From a virus: a stretch of 62,216 nucleotides of DNA. The stretch lies in IMG/VR virus record IMGVR_UViG_3300046357_000001, positions 1 to 62,216 of that record, one strand, 5' to 3'. The position numbers and the translations under genes are program-made. Of the stretch, positions 41,364 to 59,650 are shown one piece after another (positions within the stretch are counted from its first letter, which is position 1; the number at the start of each line of letters is the position of its first letter). Under the pieces are notes generated by a model that saw only the letters and a program-made list of their open reading frames with translations, had not been told where the DNA came from and ran no database searches.

Positions 41364-43793
41364 TTAAGATTTAATTTCTGTGTCAAACAATTGGGTTAGT
41401 AGTGAGTGGTCACTAACCTTTGTTTCTAATGCTTTAAACATCTTTTTCTCAATCGGTGAGCCTTGGATGTGGATGACAGTCACTTTGTCGGACGTCTGTC
41501 CCTTGCGGTCAGCACGCGCACAACACTGCACATATTGCTCCACAGACATCAACGGACCGTAGAACACAACCGTGTCGGCAGCAGTCAAGGTAATACCGTG
41601 AGCAGATGCTTGGGGCTGCATCACAAGGACGCGTGGGTCTGGGTCAGTCTGGAACCTACGGATGATGTCACCACGCTTGGAGGCAGGCACGTCACCACGA
41701 ATCATCTCTGCGCTGATACCTTTCTTCAATAGGTAGTTGTGGATGTTGTCGATACTACTGGTGAACAACGCGAAGACCAATACCTTGCGAGTCGTCTCTT
41801 CCAAGATTTCCTCCAGTACCGCCAAGCGAGGCGCCGCATCAAACTCAACCACTTCACCGTTGTCGGTGTAGGCAGCGCCACAACTGATCTGCAACAACTT
41901 CGATACACCCGCCGCCGCATTGACTGCACTGATAGTCTCGCCGCCAGTTTGAATCAGCATACGGTCTTTCAAATGCTCGTAGTACTTCTTCTGTTGCGGC
42001 GTCATCGGCACTTCACGCGTCATCGTCACCACAGGTGGCAGGTCCAAGCATTCAGCCTTAGTGAAACGAATGGCGGGTTGTAACGCCTCGAACACTGTGT
42101 CTCCTGCGTTAGCCTTCGGAGCCCACTTGAACATAGTGATCTTGTTCAGTACTTTGTCGCGCCATGCTGTGTAGAACTTAGGTACGTTGGTAGGGTTGAC
42201 CAGCTTGGCCAGCCCATATGCGTCAGCAGGCGACTGTGATGCAGGTGTACCAGTCATCATCCACAACAACGTCTCAGGCTTGATGATGGATGCCAGCGCC
42301 TTCCAGCGCCGAGTAGTAACGGTCTTGTATGCGTTGCAGTTGTGTACTAACCAGTGATCCCCAACAAAGTAGTTAGGTGTTCCCGCAACTTCGAGGTTGT
42401 AGACAGCTTCACCGTCTGGGCATTCGATATGCGAAACACTTTCCACCCAAGCGTTTCCAGCTTGGTCTCCTTCTTCCGGTCTTGCGCTTGGCGTGCTGTC
42501 GCTGTATGACTCCCCCCGTCCACCTCCAGCCCTATCTTGAGGTGCGGCAATGCGAAGTCGAGCTTGTAGTTCGTAGGAAAGCCTTGCTGCCTCTTTCCCA
42601 ACGCTACGGGGTAGTTCCATACCCAACCCACAGGCAAGACCTTGGAAATCAAACACTCTGTTGGAGTCATCCCCGTGCCATTGCCGCCCCGCACCTTGGG
42701 TTTGAGCCCCAGCGCCTTTGCTGCCGCTGACAGTTTCGCTCGGTGTTCCGCAGTCTTTGGCCCCGAAGGTTTCCCCCGCTGCTCGTGTGGCATTTCGCAA
42801 AAGTAGCTCTTGCTGGGGTTCAGTAAGTGCCATCTCTTCCGTGCGCAGGATTTGGAGCAGGTCTGTCCAAGCGCCTTTTGGTACTTTTGCGCCCATGTGT
42901 ACCGGGATTGTGGAAAGTGGTACTCCTGCCCGCAAACAGGACAGTTCAAGACCAGATATAAGCCGTCTACCCGTAAGATTTTTGGCACACATCCATCCAG
43001 CGTCTGTGAAGAATGGGTGCTCTGGGGTGCACCGAATTGTTTTTCCGTTTCCAAGTTTGACCTCGACAATCTGTTTAGTGGTATTGCGTACAAGCCTGTT
43101 TATACCCATTACTCCGTCAGATGTCAAGACCTTATCCCCCATTTGCAGTTGTTCTATGGGCCGTCTACCTTGTGGGGTAGCCACCAAAGTCCCTGCTACA
43201 AAGCACTCATCAACGATAACCAGATCGAACTTGCCGTTGGCGTTTATCTCATCAGCAATTAAGTTCAAGCCTTCGTAGTTGGTAATGACGAACTCATAGT
43301 TCTGTTGCACCATCTCGATACGACGCGATGCTTGTGGGTGGTGGGCGATGATCGCGCTACGGTGAATGACGCTTGCGTTCAAGTCCTGCATCCAAGCTGA
43401 CTGCATGATCGACAACGGACACAGCACAAGGACTCGTCTCACTTCACCACGTGTCATCAAGTAGTCCGCGGCCCACAATGCTGAGAGCGTCTTGCCTGTG
43501 CCGGGCTCGCTAAACACGAATGCCTTGCGGTTGAGCGTTAGGAAAGATGCTGTATCAATCTGGTGTGCCATTGGCTTGTGACGGCCGGGCCAGTTATAGC
43601 GGCGTGTGATTGGTGAAGGTACGTCCTTCACCCCTAAGTTTTTAAGCACTCGACATTCGTCTAGTCCCCAGAAAACAGCTACCTCCGCAGACCCGTCTTC
43701 GTATTGCTCGACGACTTTGCTGCGGGGAATGACTGTGTACTTTTCTGGGTTTCTAGTTCGAAGGAGCAGCGCCTTGTCTTCGATGATTTCCAT
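41364..43793 (-). CDS. SNF2/DEAD-type helicase containing an intein
   Basis: An 809-residue precursor. Extein N-part: Walker A SEPGTGKT (95-102), VLVLCPLSIM motif Ia, NYE and FDLVIVDE at 190-196. The intein follows at Cys197 and ends at Asn485; the extein resumes as CNAYKTVTTRRWKAL, so splicing gives IVDECNAYK, the DEAH-box-like Walker B of SNF2-type helicases. Motif III MMTGTPASQSP and motifs V/VI (QPQASAHGITLT, QCCARADRKGQ) follow. The spliced enzyme would be 520 residues. Likely role: unwinding or remodelling in replication or recombination, next to RecB-like and HNH nucleases. GAGAGAAGCA precedes the ATG. Confidence 0.9.
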   Translation of the reverse strand: MEIIEDKALLLRTRNPEKYTVIPRSKVVEQYEDGSAEVAVFWGLDECRVLKNLGVKDVPSPITRRYNWPGRHKPMAHQIDTASFLTLNRKAFVFSEPGTGKTLSALWAADYLMTRGEVRRVLVLCPLSIMQSAWMQDLNASVIHRSAIIAHHPQASRRIEMVQQNYEFVITNYEGLNLIADEINANGKFDLVIVDECFVAGTLVATPQGRRPIEQLQMGDKVLTSDGVMGINRLVRNTTKQIVEVKLGNGKTIRCTPEHPFFTDAGWMCAKNLTGRRLISGLELSCLRAGVPLSTIPVHMGAKVPKGAWTDLLQILRTEEMALTEPQQELLLRNATRAAGETFGAKDCGTPSETVSGSKGAGAQTQGAGRQWHGDDSNRVFDFQGLACGLGMELPRSVGKEAARLSYELQARLRIAAPQDRAGGGRGESYSDSTPSARPEEGDQAGNAWVESVSHIECPDGEAVYNLEVAGTPNYFVGDHWLVHNCNAYKTVTTRRWKALASIIKPETLLWMMTGTPASQSPADAYGLAKLVNPTNVPKFYTAWRDKVLNKITMFKWAPKANAGDTVFEALQPAIRFTKAECLDLPPVVTMTREVPMTPQQKKYYEHLKDRMLIQTGGETISAVNAAAGVSKLLQISCGAAYTDNGEVVEFDAAPRLAVLEEILEETTRKVLVFALFTSSIDNIHNYLLKKGISAEMIRGDVPASKRGDIIRRFQTDPDPRVLVMQPQASAHGITLTAADTVVFYGPLMSVEQYVQCCARADRKGQTSDKVTVIHIQGSPIEKKMFKALETKVSDHSLLTQLFDTEIKS
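42339..43205 (-). mobile_element. Intein in helicase Walker B
   Basis: An 867-base, 289-residue intein (helicase residues 197-485). Block A is CFVAGTLVATPQGRRPIEQL (Cys1), block B has IRCTPEHPFFTDAGW (the TPEH motif with its His), block F/G is VYNLEVAGTPNYFVGDHW then VHN with terminal Asn, and the next extein residue is Cys. These are the residues needed for protein splicing. There is no in-frame LAGLIDADG or HNH domain. The ~150-residue middle (Gly/Arg/Asp/Ser/Gln-rich) is unlike normal folded sequence, because a nuclease gene occupies the DNA in another frame. Confidence 0.93.
42347..43054 (-). CDS. Homing endonuclease (Vsr/DUF559-like) overprinted in helicase intein
   Basis: A same-strand gene wholly inside the intein, in the +1 frame. 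A zinc-finger module is visible (CPVCGQEYHF, then CSKSC about 24 residues later), then a Lys/Arg-rich linker and a Vsr/PD-(D/E)XK-like nuclease: NYKLDFALPHLKIGLEVDGG (active Asp and Glu), QDRKKETKLETLGWKVFRI (Gln, Lys). The frame opens after a TAA at ~43106. TTG at 43054 is preferred (GAGG then 6 bases); TTG at 43093 is also possible. The stop (42347-42349) is 6 bases from the intein end, so blocks F and G are doubly coded. It would promote intein homing into helicase alleles that lack it. Confidence 0.85.
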   Translation of the reverse strand: METEKQFGAPQSTHSSQTLDGCVPKILRVDGLYLVLNCPVCGQEYHFPQSRYTWAQKYQKALGQTCSKSCARKRWHLLNPSKSYFCEMPHEQRGKPSGPKTAEHRAKLSAAAKALGLKPKVRGGNGTGMTPTECLISKVLPVGWVWNYPVALGKRQQGFPTNYKLDFALPHLKIGLEVDGGSHTATARQAQDRKKETKLETLGWKVFRISNAQTVKLSTTSKLREHLTTLLGITG

Positions 43794-44057: not shown

Positions 44058-44720
44058 TCAGTGTTTTTTGTGGAACTCACAGCCAGTGCAAGGACACCAG
44101 CCGCAGAGCGGGGTACGTGTTGGATTCCATACATCGTTGTCGATGCACGAAGCGATACGGCTAACGCGTTCACGATACTTCCACCATTCGGAGTCCATCT
44201 CGTCAACGTTCATGCTGTGCTTAACCATATCATTCTTGACCACGAAGAGCAACGCTGAGTTGACCTTGCGGATGTGCGGGAAGTGCTTGAATACCATCAC
44301 TGACATGAGGCGTAGCTGGTCACGGTCTGGGTACTTGTTGTTACCCGTCTTGTAGTCCACCACCCATGCAGTCAGGTTCTCGTCATCAATGATGAGCAAG
44401 TCGGCTACGCCCCTCACCCATGCATCTTTGGCAAACCATTCAGTCGGTGTCAGGTCTTCCTTCAGTGTCATCTTGTACTCAGCCAACTTGCGGCCGGGCT
44501 TGTTGATGAGCGCATCGAGCGTGTCCTTAACAAACTCAAACTGCTTGGGCAGCGGTGTGCCCTCACCTACGTAGAGTTCGGCTGCCTTGTGCAGCTCGTT
44601 ACCGTAGCGCGTAGCCTCGGTCTCCACGAATGGGTGCATCTTCAGAATACGTGTGGCGTGATACTTCCGCGCACACTGCTCAAACTCCTTGAGCGATGAA
44701 TGTGACCATGATATTTTCAT
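44058..44720 (-). CDS. RecB-like PD-(D/E)XK nuclease
   Basis: A 220-residue protein. Motifs: WSHSSLKEFEQCARKYH at the start (helix with Cys), GNELHKAAE (conserved His), GVADLLIIDDENLTAWVVDY (catalytic Asp) followed by KTGNNKY (Lys), and a C-terminal cluster CGWCPCTGCEFH, like the Cys-rich iron-sulfur region of Cas4/AddB-type exonucleases. It probably acts in phage recombination or DNA end processing. Its start overlaps the stop of a truncated HNH gene (ATGA). Confidence 0.87.
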   Translation of the reverse strand: MKISWSHSSLKEFEQCARKYHATRILKMHPFVETEATRYGNELHKAAELYVGEGTPLPKQFEFVKDTLDALINKPGRKLAEYKMTLKEDLTPTEWFAKDAWVRGVADLLIIDDENLTAWVVDYKTGNNKYPDRDQLRLMSVMVFKHFPHIRKVNSALLFVVKNDMVKHSMNVDEMDSEWWKYRERVSRIASCIDNDVWNPTRTPLCGWCPCTGCEFHKKH

Positions 44721-45025
44721 AAGTTTCCTGCTGGGTGAAGAATTCGTTTTGCGGTTATGTAGGCAGCATGGGCTTCTTCGGCGGTATCAAAATATCCCAA
44801 GTGCTTTCGCTTCCCATCAACCTTGATGAAAGAAATAAAACGCTTGTGTCGTTTGTGCCAACTAGCGCCTAGTAGTTGCGTTGACTTGTTCTTCGGGCGG
44901 TACGCTTTTTGATTCTGTCCGTTCAACTTGTGGTTGGAAAGGCGTAGGTTCTTAAAGCGGTTATCAAGTGGGTTTCCGTTGATATGGTCAATCATTTCTG
45001 TAGGCCACACCCCCGTCTCAAACAA
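44717..45025 (-). pseudogene. Truncated HNH-AP2 homing endonuclease
   Basis: A 102-residue open frame from a TTG at 45025. It has IDHINGNPLDNRFKNLRL, the second half of an HNH nuclease, then an AP2-like DNA-binding domain (WHKRHKRFISFIKVDGKRKH, LGYFDTAEEAHAAY). The first half of the nuclease, including the HRL-type histidine strand that precedes WLFETGVWP, is missing; upstream in frame there is only KIVWLFETG after a TAA. It is probably a remnant of an invading HNH gene, unlikely to cut DNA. The AP2 part might still bind DNA. Confidence 0.75.
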
Positions 45026-45355: not shown

Positions 45356-48217
45356 TTATTTCTTTGCTAACCCGTATCGTCTGTGTGCGCCACCGTCAGC
45401 GTCGAGCGGAATGCCCTTCAAATACTTTGGCTCCATAGTCATCTGCGCCAAGACCCAAGTCTTAGCGTCATCCACCTCTGCATCAGGCACAACCACGATC
45501 TGTTCATCATGCACTGTTCCCGCCACGAAGTACTTCTTCGAGGTTCTCAACATACCATCCGTCATCACGCATCTCGCTACGCCCTGCGTGACGTTGTTGG
45601 TAATCTTTCCAGCGTACAGTTTAGTCTCATCTGCGCCGTATGTCCACTGCACCCTACCTTTTTCATCCTTGCCACGCTTCAAGTCCGGATACAGCAAGCT
45701 CATGCCAGAGGGCAGCACGATCTCGCCCTTCTTAAACGTCAGGCATTTGTATGTGTATTCCTTGCCACCGAACAAGCTAGTCTCGATGAGCTGGCCGCAC
45801 ATGCCCCAGAAGTCCACAACAGGCTGCGCAGTCTTACGGTACTTGTCGATAATCTTCTTGGCCGCTAGGCAGTGGATGAGCAACTCTGCCTTGGTACAGA
45901 TGTGCGGTATCTCATTCATCTTTTCAACGAAGTCTTCATTGTCCAAGAACTTCTCAACGTCTTCCGCCGTGACGCCCAGTGCCTTGGCGAACTTTCGCTC
46001 GTACCGTACAGGTGGCGCACCCAAGAAGCCCACGAGGAGTTGAGACGCAAATGATGCCCAACCTAACCCATACCCGCAGTTGTGCACAATCAATGGCCCT
46101 GCGTCCGTCCGAATGGTGTATCTGTTACGCGGCCCTGCATAAGCGATGTCGTAGGTCTGCATTCTCTGCTTCAAGGGTTGCGATGCGGGTGCGTAGTTCG
46201 ACAACTTCTCGTGCGGTGATTTTGCGCTTGTTGGACATATTGACGCTGCGGTTGACGAAGCGAAGGTTGCTTGGTTCATAACCTCGGTTGTTGTCTGTCC
46301 TATCCAGTTGAAGTTCTGGTTTGTCCCACCCCTCAAGCCCAACGAGGTAACGTAAGAATTCAACACGGTTCGCAACCCATTCTGGGTAAACCGTAATTCC
46401 ACGCCCCCCATAGTCGGGGTACACGGAACTGTTCGGGTTTGTGCATCTGACGATGATGGCGCTGATTCTGTCCAAAAGTCGAGCACGATGCTTTCGATCA
46501 GGGCAAACAGCGAAATATCCTTTTCGTTCCCATCGAGTTTCAACAGCCTTTCTTTTAGCGCAGGCATCGCAGCGCGTAGTACGCCCTGCAACAATGTTAT
46601 ATCTATCGACAAACCCCGACCACCCGCAGGAGCACTGCACAACAGGATGGAATCCACCAGTTGTCTTGCGATCCCAGCGGAGGCAGGTAAGCTCGCCGAT
46701 GACAGCGCCGATTTCAAAAGGGAACGGTTTGCTAGGGCCTCTGACCACTCCACCCACCCCCGTTCCGTCAGAATTTCGTGGCCCGAAGTCGCGCTTACCC
46801 CCAGTGCTGTCAGCACTTCCTTTTCGCCTTGCGGCACTAACCCCTGATGACATACCCACTCCTCTCCATCCCATACCATATCCGTAGCCTGTACCCGTGT
46901 TATAGGTATCCAACCGCGTCTAGTCAACACAGGCGTGTCGGGGCCGAAGCACCCAAGTAAAGCGGACTTCGCTGACTGCCGAAGGTCGGGGTGTGACTCT
47001 TTTGACAGGCCCGGGATGTTGAACATCTGAGCGCCGAACTGTGCGTAGGGGTCACCGCCCGCGACGAAGATGCGTAGGAGTTCGTCGTATTCTGCCAGCC
47101 ATGCGAGAACCCGAGGCTCGATCTGCGATAAGTCGCCGACGACCAACTGATAGCCTTTCGGAGCCATGATAGCTTTGCGGAGAAACGAACCACGTTTGAG
47201 GTTTTGCATGTTGATGGCCGAACCTTTGCTTGCAGTCCACCGTCCCGTCGCAGCACCATAGTACGAGAGTGGTACAGGAAGCGTGCCCCGTCCGGCGATG
47301 TCGAGGAACCGTTGTGCACGAGTCCTCTCCGTGGTGGATTTAACTGAGAGCCTTGCTTGGCATAGTGCTTGAACATCTTCGTTGTCTCCGTTCAACATGG
47401 CTTGGAACATCGCATCGGTTTTGGCAAACGCGAAGTTAACACCCGTCGGATGCGGTGTCTTGGCCGTGGGTTTCTTTTTCTTGGTAGGTGGCTCGATGCC
47501 CACTAAGCGCAACGTCTCAGCGAAGCGCACGTTACTGGCCAAGTCCCCACCCATCACCTCAAGGCGGGCAAGCAAGGCTTCACGCTTCTCCTTCTCATCA
47601 TGCAAGGCATCGACCAACATGTTTTGATCCAGTACCAGCACGGGACGCGTGTACATCTTCAACGTCATGTCGATGAGTCTCAGCTCCTTTGCTGGATAGG
47701 ATGCAGCCAGCCTTTTGAATATTTCTTCGCACAGAAACACATCATGTTGGCAGTACTCAGCGAGTTCTCTTTCGAGCGTGGCGTCCAACTCGTGAACTCC
47801 ATTAGTTGAATATACGGCCGTGCCTTTAGCCGGGAGGCCGAAGTCGGTTGCCAGTTTCGCGAGGGAATTACCAACTTCCACGCCTCGTAAAGCTCGGCCC
47901 ATTGATAAGGTGTCGAAGATGAAGCAGGGGTGGATCTTGTACTTCCATTCGAGGATGGCCACATCGAACTGTGCGTTATGCGCGAGGATGGCCGTGTTGT
48001 CCCAGTCGAATGTCTGAAGGACTCGAGGTAGTTCATCTCCTCGATACCACTGCACAATTCCGTCGCTTCCGTATACATGGAGGCAAGCTCCGAATACTTT
48101 GAATCTATCATGGCGTATGTACTCCTCGGTTGTCATCTTCGATAGGGTGTAACCGCTAGCGGTGTCCCAGTAGGTTTCGTAGTCGATTGTTACGATCTGT
48201 TTAAAAGGTGCACTCAT
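45356..48217 (-). CDS. DNA polymerase I-type (family A) with an intein
   Basis: A 953-residue precursor. Residues 12-159 hold a DnaQ-like 3'-5' exonuclease: DYETY (12-16), NAQFD (81-85) and YCQHD (155-159). Polymerase motif A is DLSQIEPRVLAWL (from 362), motif B is RQSAKSALLG (413-422), then the intein, then CGYGLGWASF, motif C is VHDEQI near the C-terminus. The intein (423-713) is inserted inside motif B/the O-helix, a common site for polymerase inteins. The spliced enzyme would be 662 residues. It copies the phage genome. AGAGGAAGAAT precedes the ATG. Its 3' end adjoins the SprT-like gene. Confidence 0.93.
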   Translation of the reverse strand: MSAPFKQIVTIDYETYWDTASGYTLSKMTTEEYIRHDRFKVFGACLHVYGSDGIVQWYRGDELPRVLQTFDWDNTAILAHNAQFDVAILEWKYKIHPCFIFDTLSMGRALRGVEVGNSLAKLATDFGLPAKGTAVYSTNGVHELDATLERELAEYCQHDVFLCEEIFKRLAASYPAKELRLIDMTLKMYTRPVLVLDQNMLVDALHDEKEKREALLARLEVMGGDLASNVRFAETLRLVGIEPPTKKKKPTAKTPHPTGVNFAFAKTDAMFQAMLNGDNEDVQALCQARLSVKSTTERTRAQRFLDIAGRGTLPVPLSYYGAATGRWTASKGSAINMQNLKRGSFLRKAIMAPKGYQLVVGDLSQIEPRVLAWLAEYDELLRIFVAGGDPYAQFGAQMFNIPGLSKESHPDLRQSAKSALLGCFGPDTPVLTRRGWIPITRVQATDMVWDGEEWVCHQGLVPQGEKEVLTALGVSATSGHEILTERGWVEWSEALANRSLLKSALSSASLPASAGIARQLVDSILLCSAPAGGRGLSIDITLLQGVLRAAMPALKERLLKLDGNEKDISLFALIESIVLDFWTESAPSSSDAQTRTVPCTPTMGGVELRFTQNGLRTVLNSYVTSLGLRGGTNQNFNWIGQTTTEVMNQATFASSTAASICPTSAKSPHEKLSNYAPASQPLKQRMQTYDIAYAGPRNRYTIRTDAGPLIVHNCGYGLGWASFASQLLVGFLGAPPVRYERKFAKALGVTAEDVEKFLDNEDFVEKMNEIPHICTKAELLIHCLAAKKIIDKYRKTAQPVVDFWGMCGQLIETSLFGGKEYTYKCLTFKKGEIVLPSGMSLLYPDLKRGKDEKGRVQWTYGADETKLYAGKITNNVTQGVARCVMTDGMLRTSKKYFVAGTVHDEQIVVVPDAEVDDAKTWVLAQMTMEPKYLKGIPLDADGGAHRRYGLAKK
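46079..46951 (-). mobile_element. Intein in DNA polymerase A motif B
   Basis: An 873-base, 291-residue intein (residues 423-713). Block A is CFGPDTPVLTRRGWIPI (Cys1), block B has ATSGHEILTERGW (conserved His), and the C-terminal block has YDIAYAGPRNRYTIRT then GPLIVHN with terminal Asn, followed by Cys of the extein. No in-frame endonuclease motif is present. The central ~190 residues are Ser/Ala/Leu/Thr-rich and look unstructured, because the DNA encodes a nuclease in another frame. Confidence 0.92.
46125..46853 (-). CDS. HNH homing endonuclease overprinted in polymerase intein
   Basis: A same-strand gene wholly inside the polymerase intein, in the +2 frame. After a ~50-residue basic N-terminus come CSCGW and CDACAKRK (zinc knuckles), then the HNH domain: ISAIIVRCTNPNSSVYPDYG, YGGRGITVYPEWVANRVEF, then LQLDRTDNNRGYEPSNLRFV with the NRSVNMSNKRK ending of this HNH group, and a leucine-zipper-like tail. 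ATG at 46853 has a very strong Shine-Dalgarno sequence (GGAGAGGAG then 5 bases), though a TTG at 46913 is open too. It ends 46 bases before the intein end. A second, independent case of a nuclease nested out of frame in an intein. Confidence 0.88.
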   Translation of the reverse strand: MSSGVSAARRKGSADSTGGKRDFGPRNSDGTGVGGVVRGPSKPFPFEIGAVIGELTCLRWDRKTTGGFHPVVQCSCGWSGFVDRYNIVAGRTTRCDACAKRKAVETRWERKGYFAVCPDRKHRARLLDRISAIIVRCTNPNSSVYPDYGGRGITVYPEWVANRVEFLRYLVGLEGWDKPELQLDRTDNNRGYEPSNLRFVNRSVNMSNKRKITAREVVELRTRIATLEAENADLRHRLCRAA

Positions 48218-59574: not shown

Positions 59575-59650
59575 TGGCATATAGCTCAGTTGGTAGAGCG
59601 CCGGACTGTTAATCCGTAGGTCCTTGGTTCGAGCCCAAGTTTGCCAGCCA
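59575..59650 (+). tRNA. tRNA-Asn (GTT)
   Basis: A 76-base cloverleaf: acceptor TGGCATA (59575-59581) pairs with TTTGCCA (59140 offset region, 59640-59646) with one mismatch; D-arm GCTC...GAGC; anticodon loop CTGTTAA with GTT at 59608-59610; T-arm CTTGG-TTCGAGC-CCAAG; the 3' GCCA is encoded (59647-59650). It lies just upstream of the small terminase gene. Phage tRNAs can supplement the host pool. Confidence 0.93.

Follow-up and report, generated by a model that had tools for sequence, protein, structure and literature searches.

Known Systems and the Locus Studied

Canonical large inteins carry an in-frame LAGLIDADG or HNH endonuclease domain, which forms one polypeptide with the splicing domain. 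In the fractured genes reportedly described by Dassa et al. in 2009, a free-standing nuclease gene lies between the two halves of a split intein. In this study, an intein in the family A DNA polymerase gene of a virus was analyzed (IMG/VR record IMGVR_UViG_3300046357_000001, positions 1 to 62,216; the window is this whole stretch of 62,216 nucleotides). Judged from sequence comparison, it is very probably mobile, with a homing endonuclease gene that is carried in a second reading frame and not fused in frame. As in canonical large inteins, an intein and a homing endonuclease occur together in a replication gene, at a conserved position, but two separate products would be made from two frames. 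As in fractured genes, a separate nuclease gene lies between the N- and C-intein; the host gene is split in fractured genes, whereas it is continuous across the polymerase intein.

Out-of-frame HNH insertions have been described before. The ShiLan domain / Pacc40 report (PMC11855218, 2025) described a hidden out-of-frame HNH in actinophage DNA methylases. There, too, the insertion contains an out-of-frame HNH-family gene and keeps the host frame open, with a patchy, homing-like spread. ShiLan has no intein splicing domain, and no ribosome-binding site was seen in it, whereas the polymerase insertion is a recognizable intein, predicted to splice, with the proposed start ATG in an intein motif. 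The placement of the stop codon looks alike: ShiLan ends in TAAC with Asn last, and some polymerase-intein HNH genes stop in CA-TAA-C. In 17 of 85 relatives, the HNH stop TAA lies in this form across His-Asn codons that are apparently intein-terminal. Given the shared TAAC ending, ShiLan could have arisen as an intein of the polymerase-intein sort and decayed.

A passing remark in a study of brucellaphages (PMC4422536, 2015) notes that their terminase contains an out-of-frame HNH, putatively encoded by an intein. That case, too, combines an essential phage gene, a putative intein, and an HNH out of frame within it; the host gene differs, and the remark itself comes without a start-codon or selection test. 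The records of APSE-1 (P45/P46) and Sodalis phage SO-1 (gp38/gp39) contain overlapping DNA polymerase and HNH coding sequences, which are members of the polymerase-intein HNH family; the APSE-1 record gives the overlap without interpretation. In the openly accessible literature (subscription papers lay outside the search), no description or test of the polymerase family was found.

Intein in the DNA Polymerase Gene

The polymerase gene (45356–48217, minus strand) encodes 953 amino acids in one open reading frame (ORF) that is uninterrupted across the intein, and it matched Pfam DNA_pol_A (4e-16) and phrog_17 (5e-65). The N-extein (48217–46952) and the C-extein (46078–45356), both on the minus strand, flank an intein of 291 amino acids (46079–46951, minus) in polymerase motif B (RQSAKSALLG^CGYG), with Cys1 at 46951 and the terminal His-Asn at 46079. 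The splicing residues were Cys1, T55..H58 of block B, GPRN of block F, the terminal His-Asn, and Cys+1. By alignment, the N-terminal splicing half with blocks A and B occupies 46712–46951 (minus), and the C-terminal half with blocks F and G occupies 46079–46177 (minus); the polymerase frame is constrained in both. Between them lies a polymerase-frame "linker" of approximately 180 amino acids (46178–46711, minus), which is open, is under little amino-acid constraint, is read off the nuclease gene, and is deleted in mini-intein relatives.

Relatives were collected from viral contigs by using the polymerase, the nuclease, the nuclease alignment, and the splicing-domain alignment as queries; bacterial genomes and named phages were also searched. 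Loci are designated by L numbers. In 85 distinct loci, the N-intein was in frame HNH+1, and the polymerase frame was open over the whole nuclease in all of them. Cys1 was retained in 83/85, TxxH in 84/85, and HN followed by C or S in 83/84; blocks A, B, F, and G with Cys1 and HN|C were kept in 81–84 of the 85 relatives. Empty sites in relatives were exact at the codon boundary. The Pfam intein models gave no match to the window intein. A profile of the two splicing halves searched against PDB matched the NEQ068 intein (E = 2.6e-4), followed, with weak E values, by inteins of DnaX, RecA, and DnaB. These results supported the insert at 46951–46079 as a true intein, with protein splicing as a predicted activity. 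The initial annotation had placed an intein without an in-frame nuclease in motif B, and this was upheld: the splicing residues were present, and the 291-amino-acid in-frame product, including its middle part, had no nuclease match in Pfam and PHROG profile searches.

Nuclease Gene in the Second Frame

The HNH-family gene (46125–46853, minus) lies in frame pol+2 (= −1) and encodes 242 amino acids from the ATG at 46853 to the stop at 46125; counted from an upstream TTG at 46913, the ORF (46913–46125, minus) has 262 amino acids. The profile search matched PHROG 374 "HNH endonuclease" (E = 1.4e-31), phrog_3377 (1.6e-20), and phrog_2081 (4.6e-20), and the Pfam and NCBIfam searches of the nuclease gave no HNH match. 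The initial annotation had read an HNH-family nuclease in the +2 frame. The profile match and the conservation in relatives confirmed it, and the coordinates, frame, motifs, and Shine-Dalgarno (SD)–ATG sequence were all found correct on the sequence.

The nuclease was conserved in all full relatives. A zinc-ribbon-like CxCx(18)CxxC motif is encoded at 46560–46634 (minus), and its residues C74, C76, C95, and C98 were invariant in 54 sequences. The HNH-family core (46224–46412, minus) contains the conserved residues YGGRGI...W, LDRxDN..GYEP.NLRF, and N..N.R. Y148, G149, R151, G152, W159, D184, R185, Y192, N196, R198, and F199 were invariant, and Asn205/208 were kept in more than 90%. The C-terminal segment resembled a coiled coil.

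Distribution and Mobility

A full-length HNH was present in nearly all of the 85 loci. In a sample selected by the intein, 60 continuous genes had an out-of-frame HNH, none had it in frame, 6 were mini-inteins without HNH, and 3 had HNH remnants. An in-frame nuclease was rejected, with no member of the HNH family in frame among 73 intein-selected cases. In a second group, the HNH lay in the other alternative frame; it comprised APSE-1, Caulobacter KcrB, Streptococcus and Gardnerella phages, and Allobaculum, and the intein of APSE-1 and KcrB was at a different polymerase site. Inteins with the HNH in the +1 frame included L096, L098, L100, and L101. Among cultured phages, 163 records contained the full 741-bp gene, and their annotation was mostly just DNA polymerase or intein. 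Jerseyvirus, Kagunavirus, and Dhillonvirus were among the matches listed for these records, and the carriers included phages of E. coli, Shigella, and Salmonella (fPoEco01, EP23, SETP3, and Ent1).

Two loci (L170 and L173) had two inteins per polymerase gene, each with an out-of-frame HNH, in different alternative frames. At another polymerase site, the polymerase frame was closed across the HNH in L069/L070 (6988–8017), L137 (~1966–2920), and L176 (2578–3512). The elements in L069/L070 and at the first intein site of L137 and L176 thus resemble split inteins, as in fractured genes, within the same polymerase family.

The four nearest polymerases (L003–L006, extein identity 86–89%) had no intein, and Ala replaced Cys at +1. 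Among carriers, the likeness of the exteins was 28–74%, and that of the HNH was 54–86%. Since the nearest polymerases lack the intein and the HNH is more alike than the extein, the element moves between polymerases. The nuclease gene was thus found as a homing gene is expected to be: inside a mobile intein, patchy, and with a history unlike that of the host gene. The nuclease might instead be translated and selected for a role other than homing, for example as a resolvase or as a packaging or exclusion nuclease. HNH proteins do serve other functions in phages, and cutting at motif B is a prediction for this one. However, the gene is embedded in a mobile intein and is distributed in the same patchy way, relatives delete the HNH yet retain the intein, and the history of the intein differs from that of the host gene. 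A role other than homing was therefore considered unlikely.

Start Codon

The proposed start ATG (46851–46853, minus) lies in the V-C codons of the intein motif WDGEEWVC. The SD-like GGAGAGGAG (46859–46867, minus) lies within the D-G-E-E-W codons, and the arrangement GGAGAGGAG-TGGGT-ATG is located at 46867–46851. An ATG in the HNH frame, after the last HNH-frame stop and inside the N-intein, was present in 83 of the 85 loci. The expectation, from polymerases recoded synonymously according to their individual codon usage, was 32.7, with a maximum of 47 in 500 simulations. With one representative per 65% cluster, the ATG was present in 32/32 (mean 10.9 expected, maximum 18). The usual position of the ATG was the A-TGG junction preceding the second Trp of WDGxxWV. 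In the clade of the window, it was mostly at the V-C codons, 6 nucleotides downstream of the usual site, and the switch accompanied loss of the first ATG. In L058, L129, and L163, an HNH-frame stop blocked the upstream start and a later ATG was present, preceded by AAGGAG in L058 and L163. The SD was weak in most relatives. The selected feature is the ATG; the SD follows from the WDGxxW codons as a side effect.

Alternatively, −1 ribosomal frameshifting during translation of the polymerase mRNA could produce the nuclease as an N-extein/N-intein/HNH fusion, with no internal initiation. The HNH does lie in the pol−1 frame in this group, and the HNH ORF of the window is open upstream to 46919. 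Frameshifting needs no ATG, yet the ATG is selected; in many relatives, a stop in the HNH frame precedes it by a few bases; and another intein group uses the +1 frame (the four loci named above). On these grounds, with no systematic search for slippery sites, frameshifting was disfavored as quite improbable, and internal initiation at the ATG was preferred.

Selection on the Two Frames

In the overlap, the differences between the window and L081 were distributed 23:13:55, mostly at HNH codon position 3, which is polymerase codon position 2. Substitutions were counted in 13 disjoint pairs by their effect in both frames (N, nonsynonymous; S, synonymous; first letter for the HNH frame, second for the polymerase frame). 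The counts were NN 106/3285, NS 85.5/1573, SN 410/1438, and SS 25.5/57. The dN/dS-like ratio was 0.11 for the HNH frame (NN/SN) and 0.59 for the polymerase frame (NN/NS). Cultured Salmonella/E. coli phages showed the same pattern, with an HNH ratio of 0.07–0.23. Because the HNH ratio was so low relative to the polymerase ratio, purifying selection must act strongly on the nuclease protein and little on the polymerase-frame linker. The initial annotation had described the HNH as overprinted on the intein. This order was reversed: of the two frames, that of the nuclease is older and constrained and has free-standing relatives, and the linker was printed over the nuclease.

The polymerase frame is protected against stop codons despite its weak amino-acid constraint. 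When HNH codons were shuffled synonymously, a mean of 1.4–5.5 polymerase-frame stops per gene was expected, and none was observed in 19/19 genes (P per gene, 0.16 to 1e-4). Among clearly free-standing HNH relatives (L066, L083, L118, L122, and L188), 5/5 had no open alternative frame over the matched region; in L107 and L192, where the HNH is also outside inteins, an alternative frame was open by chance. In the reverse comparison, polymerase-synonymous shuffling gave approximately 5 expected HNH-frame stops, against a full-length HNH in nearly all loci; since the way in which cores were retained leaves them without stops, full-length coverage was given the weight.

These results bear on the view that the HNH frame is a chance ORF or a dead relic within the intein linker. 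Relatives with a deleted or interrupted HNH would agree with it. The PHROG 374 match, the NN/SN ratio in independent pairs, and the full-length HNH in nearly all loci despite the stops expected stand against it. Chance was excluded by the hidden Markov model match, the conservation over 85 loci, the dual-frame substitutions, and the start- and stop-codon tests. For the family, the chance or relic explanation was refuted by the selection, stop, and start-codon tests, and for the window it was held to be very improbable.

Least probable of all is that the insert is a group I intron encoding an HNH: the SO-1 gp38/gp39 annotation reads "type I self-splicing intron", and HNH-bearing group I introns occur in phage DNA polymerase genes (for example, PMC3428280), but Rfam gave no match at E ≤ 1 in 45900–47100 and none by gathering score at the site in relatives, the polymerase frame is open, the intein blocks are conserved, and the empty sites fall at the exact codon boundary, so that the intron was rejected on the Rfam result and the conserved intein features. 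In SO-1 itself (L205, 2486–3244), Rfam gave no support for the recorded intron, and the features fit an intein.

Points against a Nested Homing Gene

Several points weigh against the interpretation of the insert as an intein with a nested homing endonuclease gene. The set of 85 loci was found partly through the HNH itself, although the sample selected by the intein also had 60 out-of-frame HNH genes and none in frame. In the start-codon and stop tests, phylogeny was only partly modelled, with the 65% identity clusters as a partial remedy. The PDB sequence search found no relative of the nuclease, and hence no solved structure was located. D-R replaced the classical catalytic His in 108/108 matched intein members and in 10/10 matched free-standing ones. 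Since the Arg at the first catalytic His position was found inside and outside inteins alike, it is a trait of the subfamily; since D-R stands in place of the catalytic His, nuclease activity is presumed from the family. Its sequence places the protein in a YGGRGI/LDRxDN subfamily, labelled HNH in PHROGs, and the His-Asn-His of a canonical HNH is absent from it.

The strength of the SD is a further such point. It was no better than that of synonymous recodings in 32 clusters (mean percentile 0.54). In L001, the representative of the clade of the window with an identical SD, 13% of synonymous recodings matched it (P = 0.13). The codons of the conserved WDGEEWV motif generate the SD, and it is therefore weak as an argument. 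The initial annotation had relied on a near-ideal ribosome-binding site as a sign of translation; the SD and the 5-base spacer are present, but they are not decisive.

Finally, some relatives have no HNH, and the HNH is therefore dispensable for splicing. L223, L237, and L245 were mini-inteins formed by in-frame deletion, in which the HNH frame was still recognizable at its ends and the polymerase frame was open. L176 had an HNH-frame stop, and no HNH was found in L099, L102, L236, L243, L253, L280, L284, and L285. The initial annotation had held that a degraded frame in an otherwise unchanged intein would speak against the nuclease. Such forms occurred in a minority of relatives, and they were not taken as a refutation, as HNH-less and interrupted forms are to be expected when a homing gene decays.

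Other Features of the Window

An intein in a helicase gene (SNF2-type) is located at 42339–43205 (minus), and a DUF559-type nuclease ORF (42347–43093, minus; DUF559, 6e-8) is nested in its helicase+1 frame. In the relatives of this intein (L191–L203), both frames were open in 13/13. The layout is thus common to two unrelated nucleases in two unrelated inteins. Between two genes, an ORF of 102 amino acids with HNH_3 and AP2 and a TTG start lies at 44717–45025 (minus). It looks like a free-standing homing endonuclease, possibly with a truncated start. A tRNA gene (59575–59647, plus) was the sole Rfam match in the window.

Proposed Mechanism and Significance

The nuclease is almost certainly translated, as judged from its conservation and its start codon. 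In the proposed mechanism, of which translation, cleavage site, homing, and protein splicing are all inferred parts, the polymerase mRNA would be read in two ways. In the polymerase frame, ribosomes would cross the nuclease gene as an inert linker, and the intein halves would splice it out to give an active polymerase. In the pol+2 frame, internal initiation at the ATG within the conserved WDGxxWV motif would give a free HNH-family nuclease. This nuclease would most likely cut motif B of intein-free polymerase genes in co-infecting phages, and the cut would lead to joint copying of the intein and the nested gene into the recipient.

Dual-frame inteins are likely to be a general, overlooked class, with unrelated nucleases (HNH and DUF559-type), unrelated inteins, both alternative frames, and starts in intein motifs. 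They probably rank with the most common homing inteins in tailed phages, and many "endonuclease-less" database inteins would belong here. The count of "HEN-less" inteins (those without a homing endonuclease) is probably wrong, because annotation pipelines retain the long ORF, which leaves the nuclease hidden. The arrangement would be a second mode in which an intein and a homing gene coexist, by overlapping frames instead of a fused domain. The element carries a long de novo peptide that is nearly unconstrained and would be removed if spliced, and it may thus serve as a natural experiment on overlapping genes.

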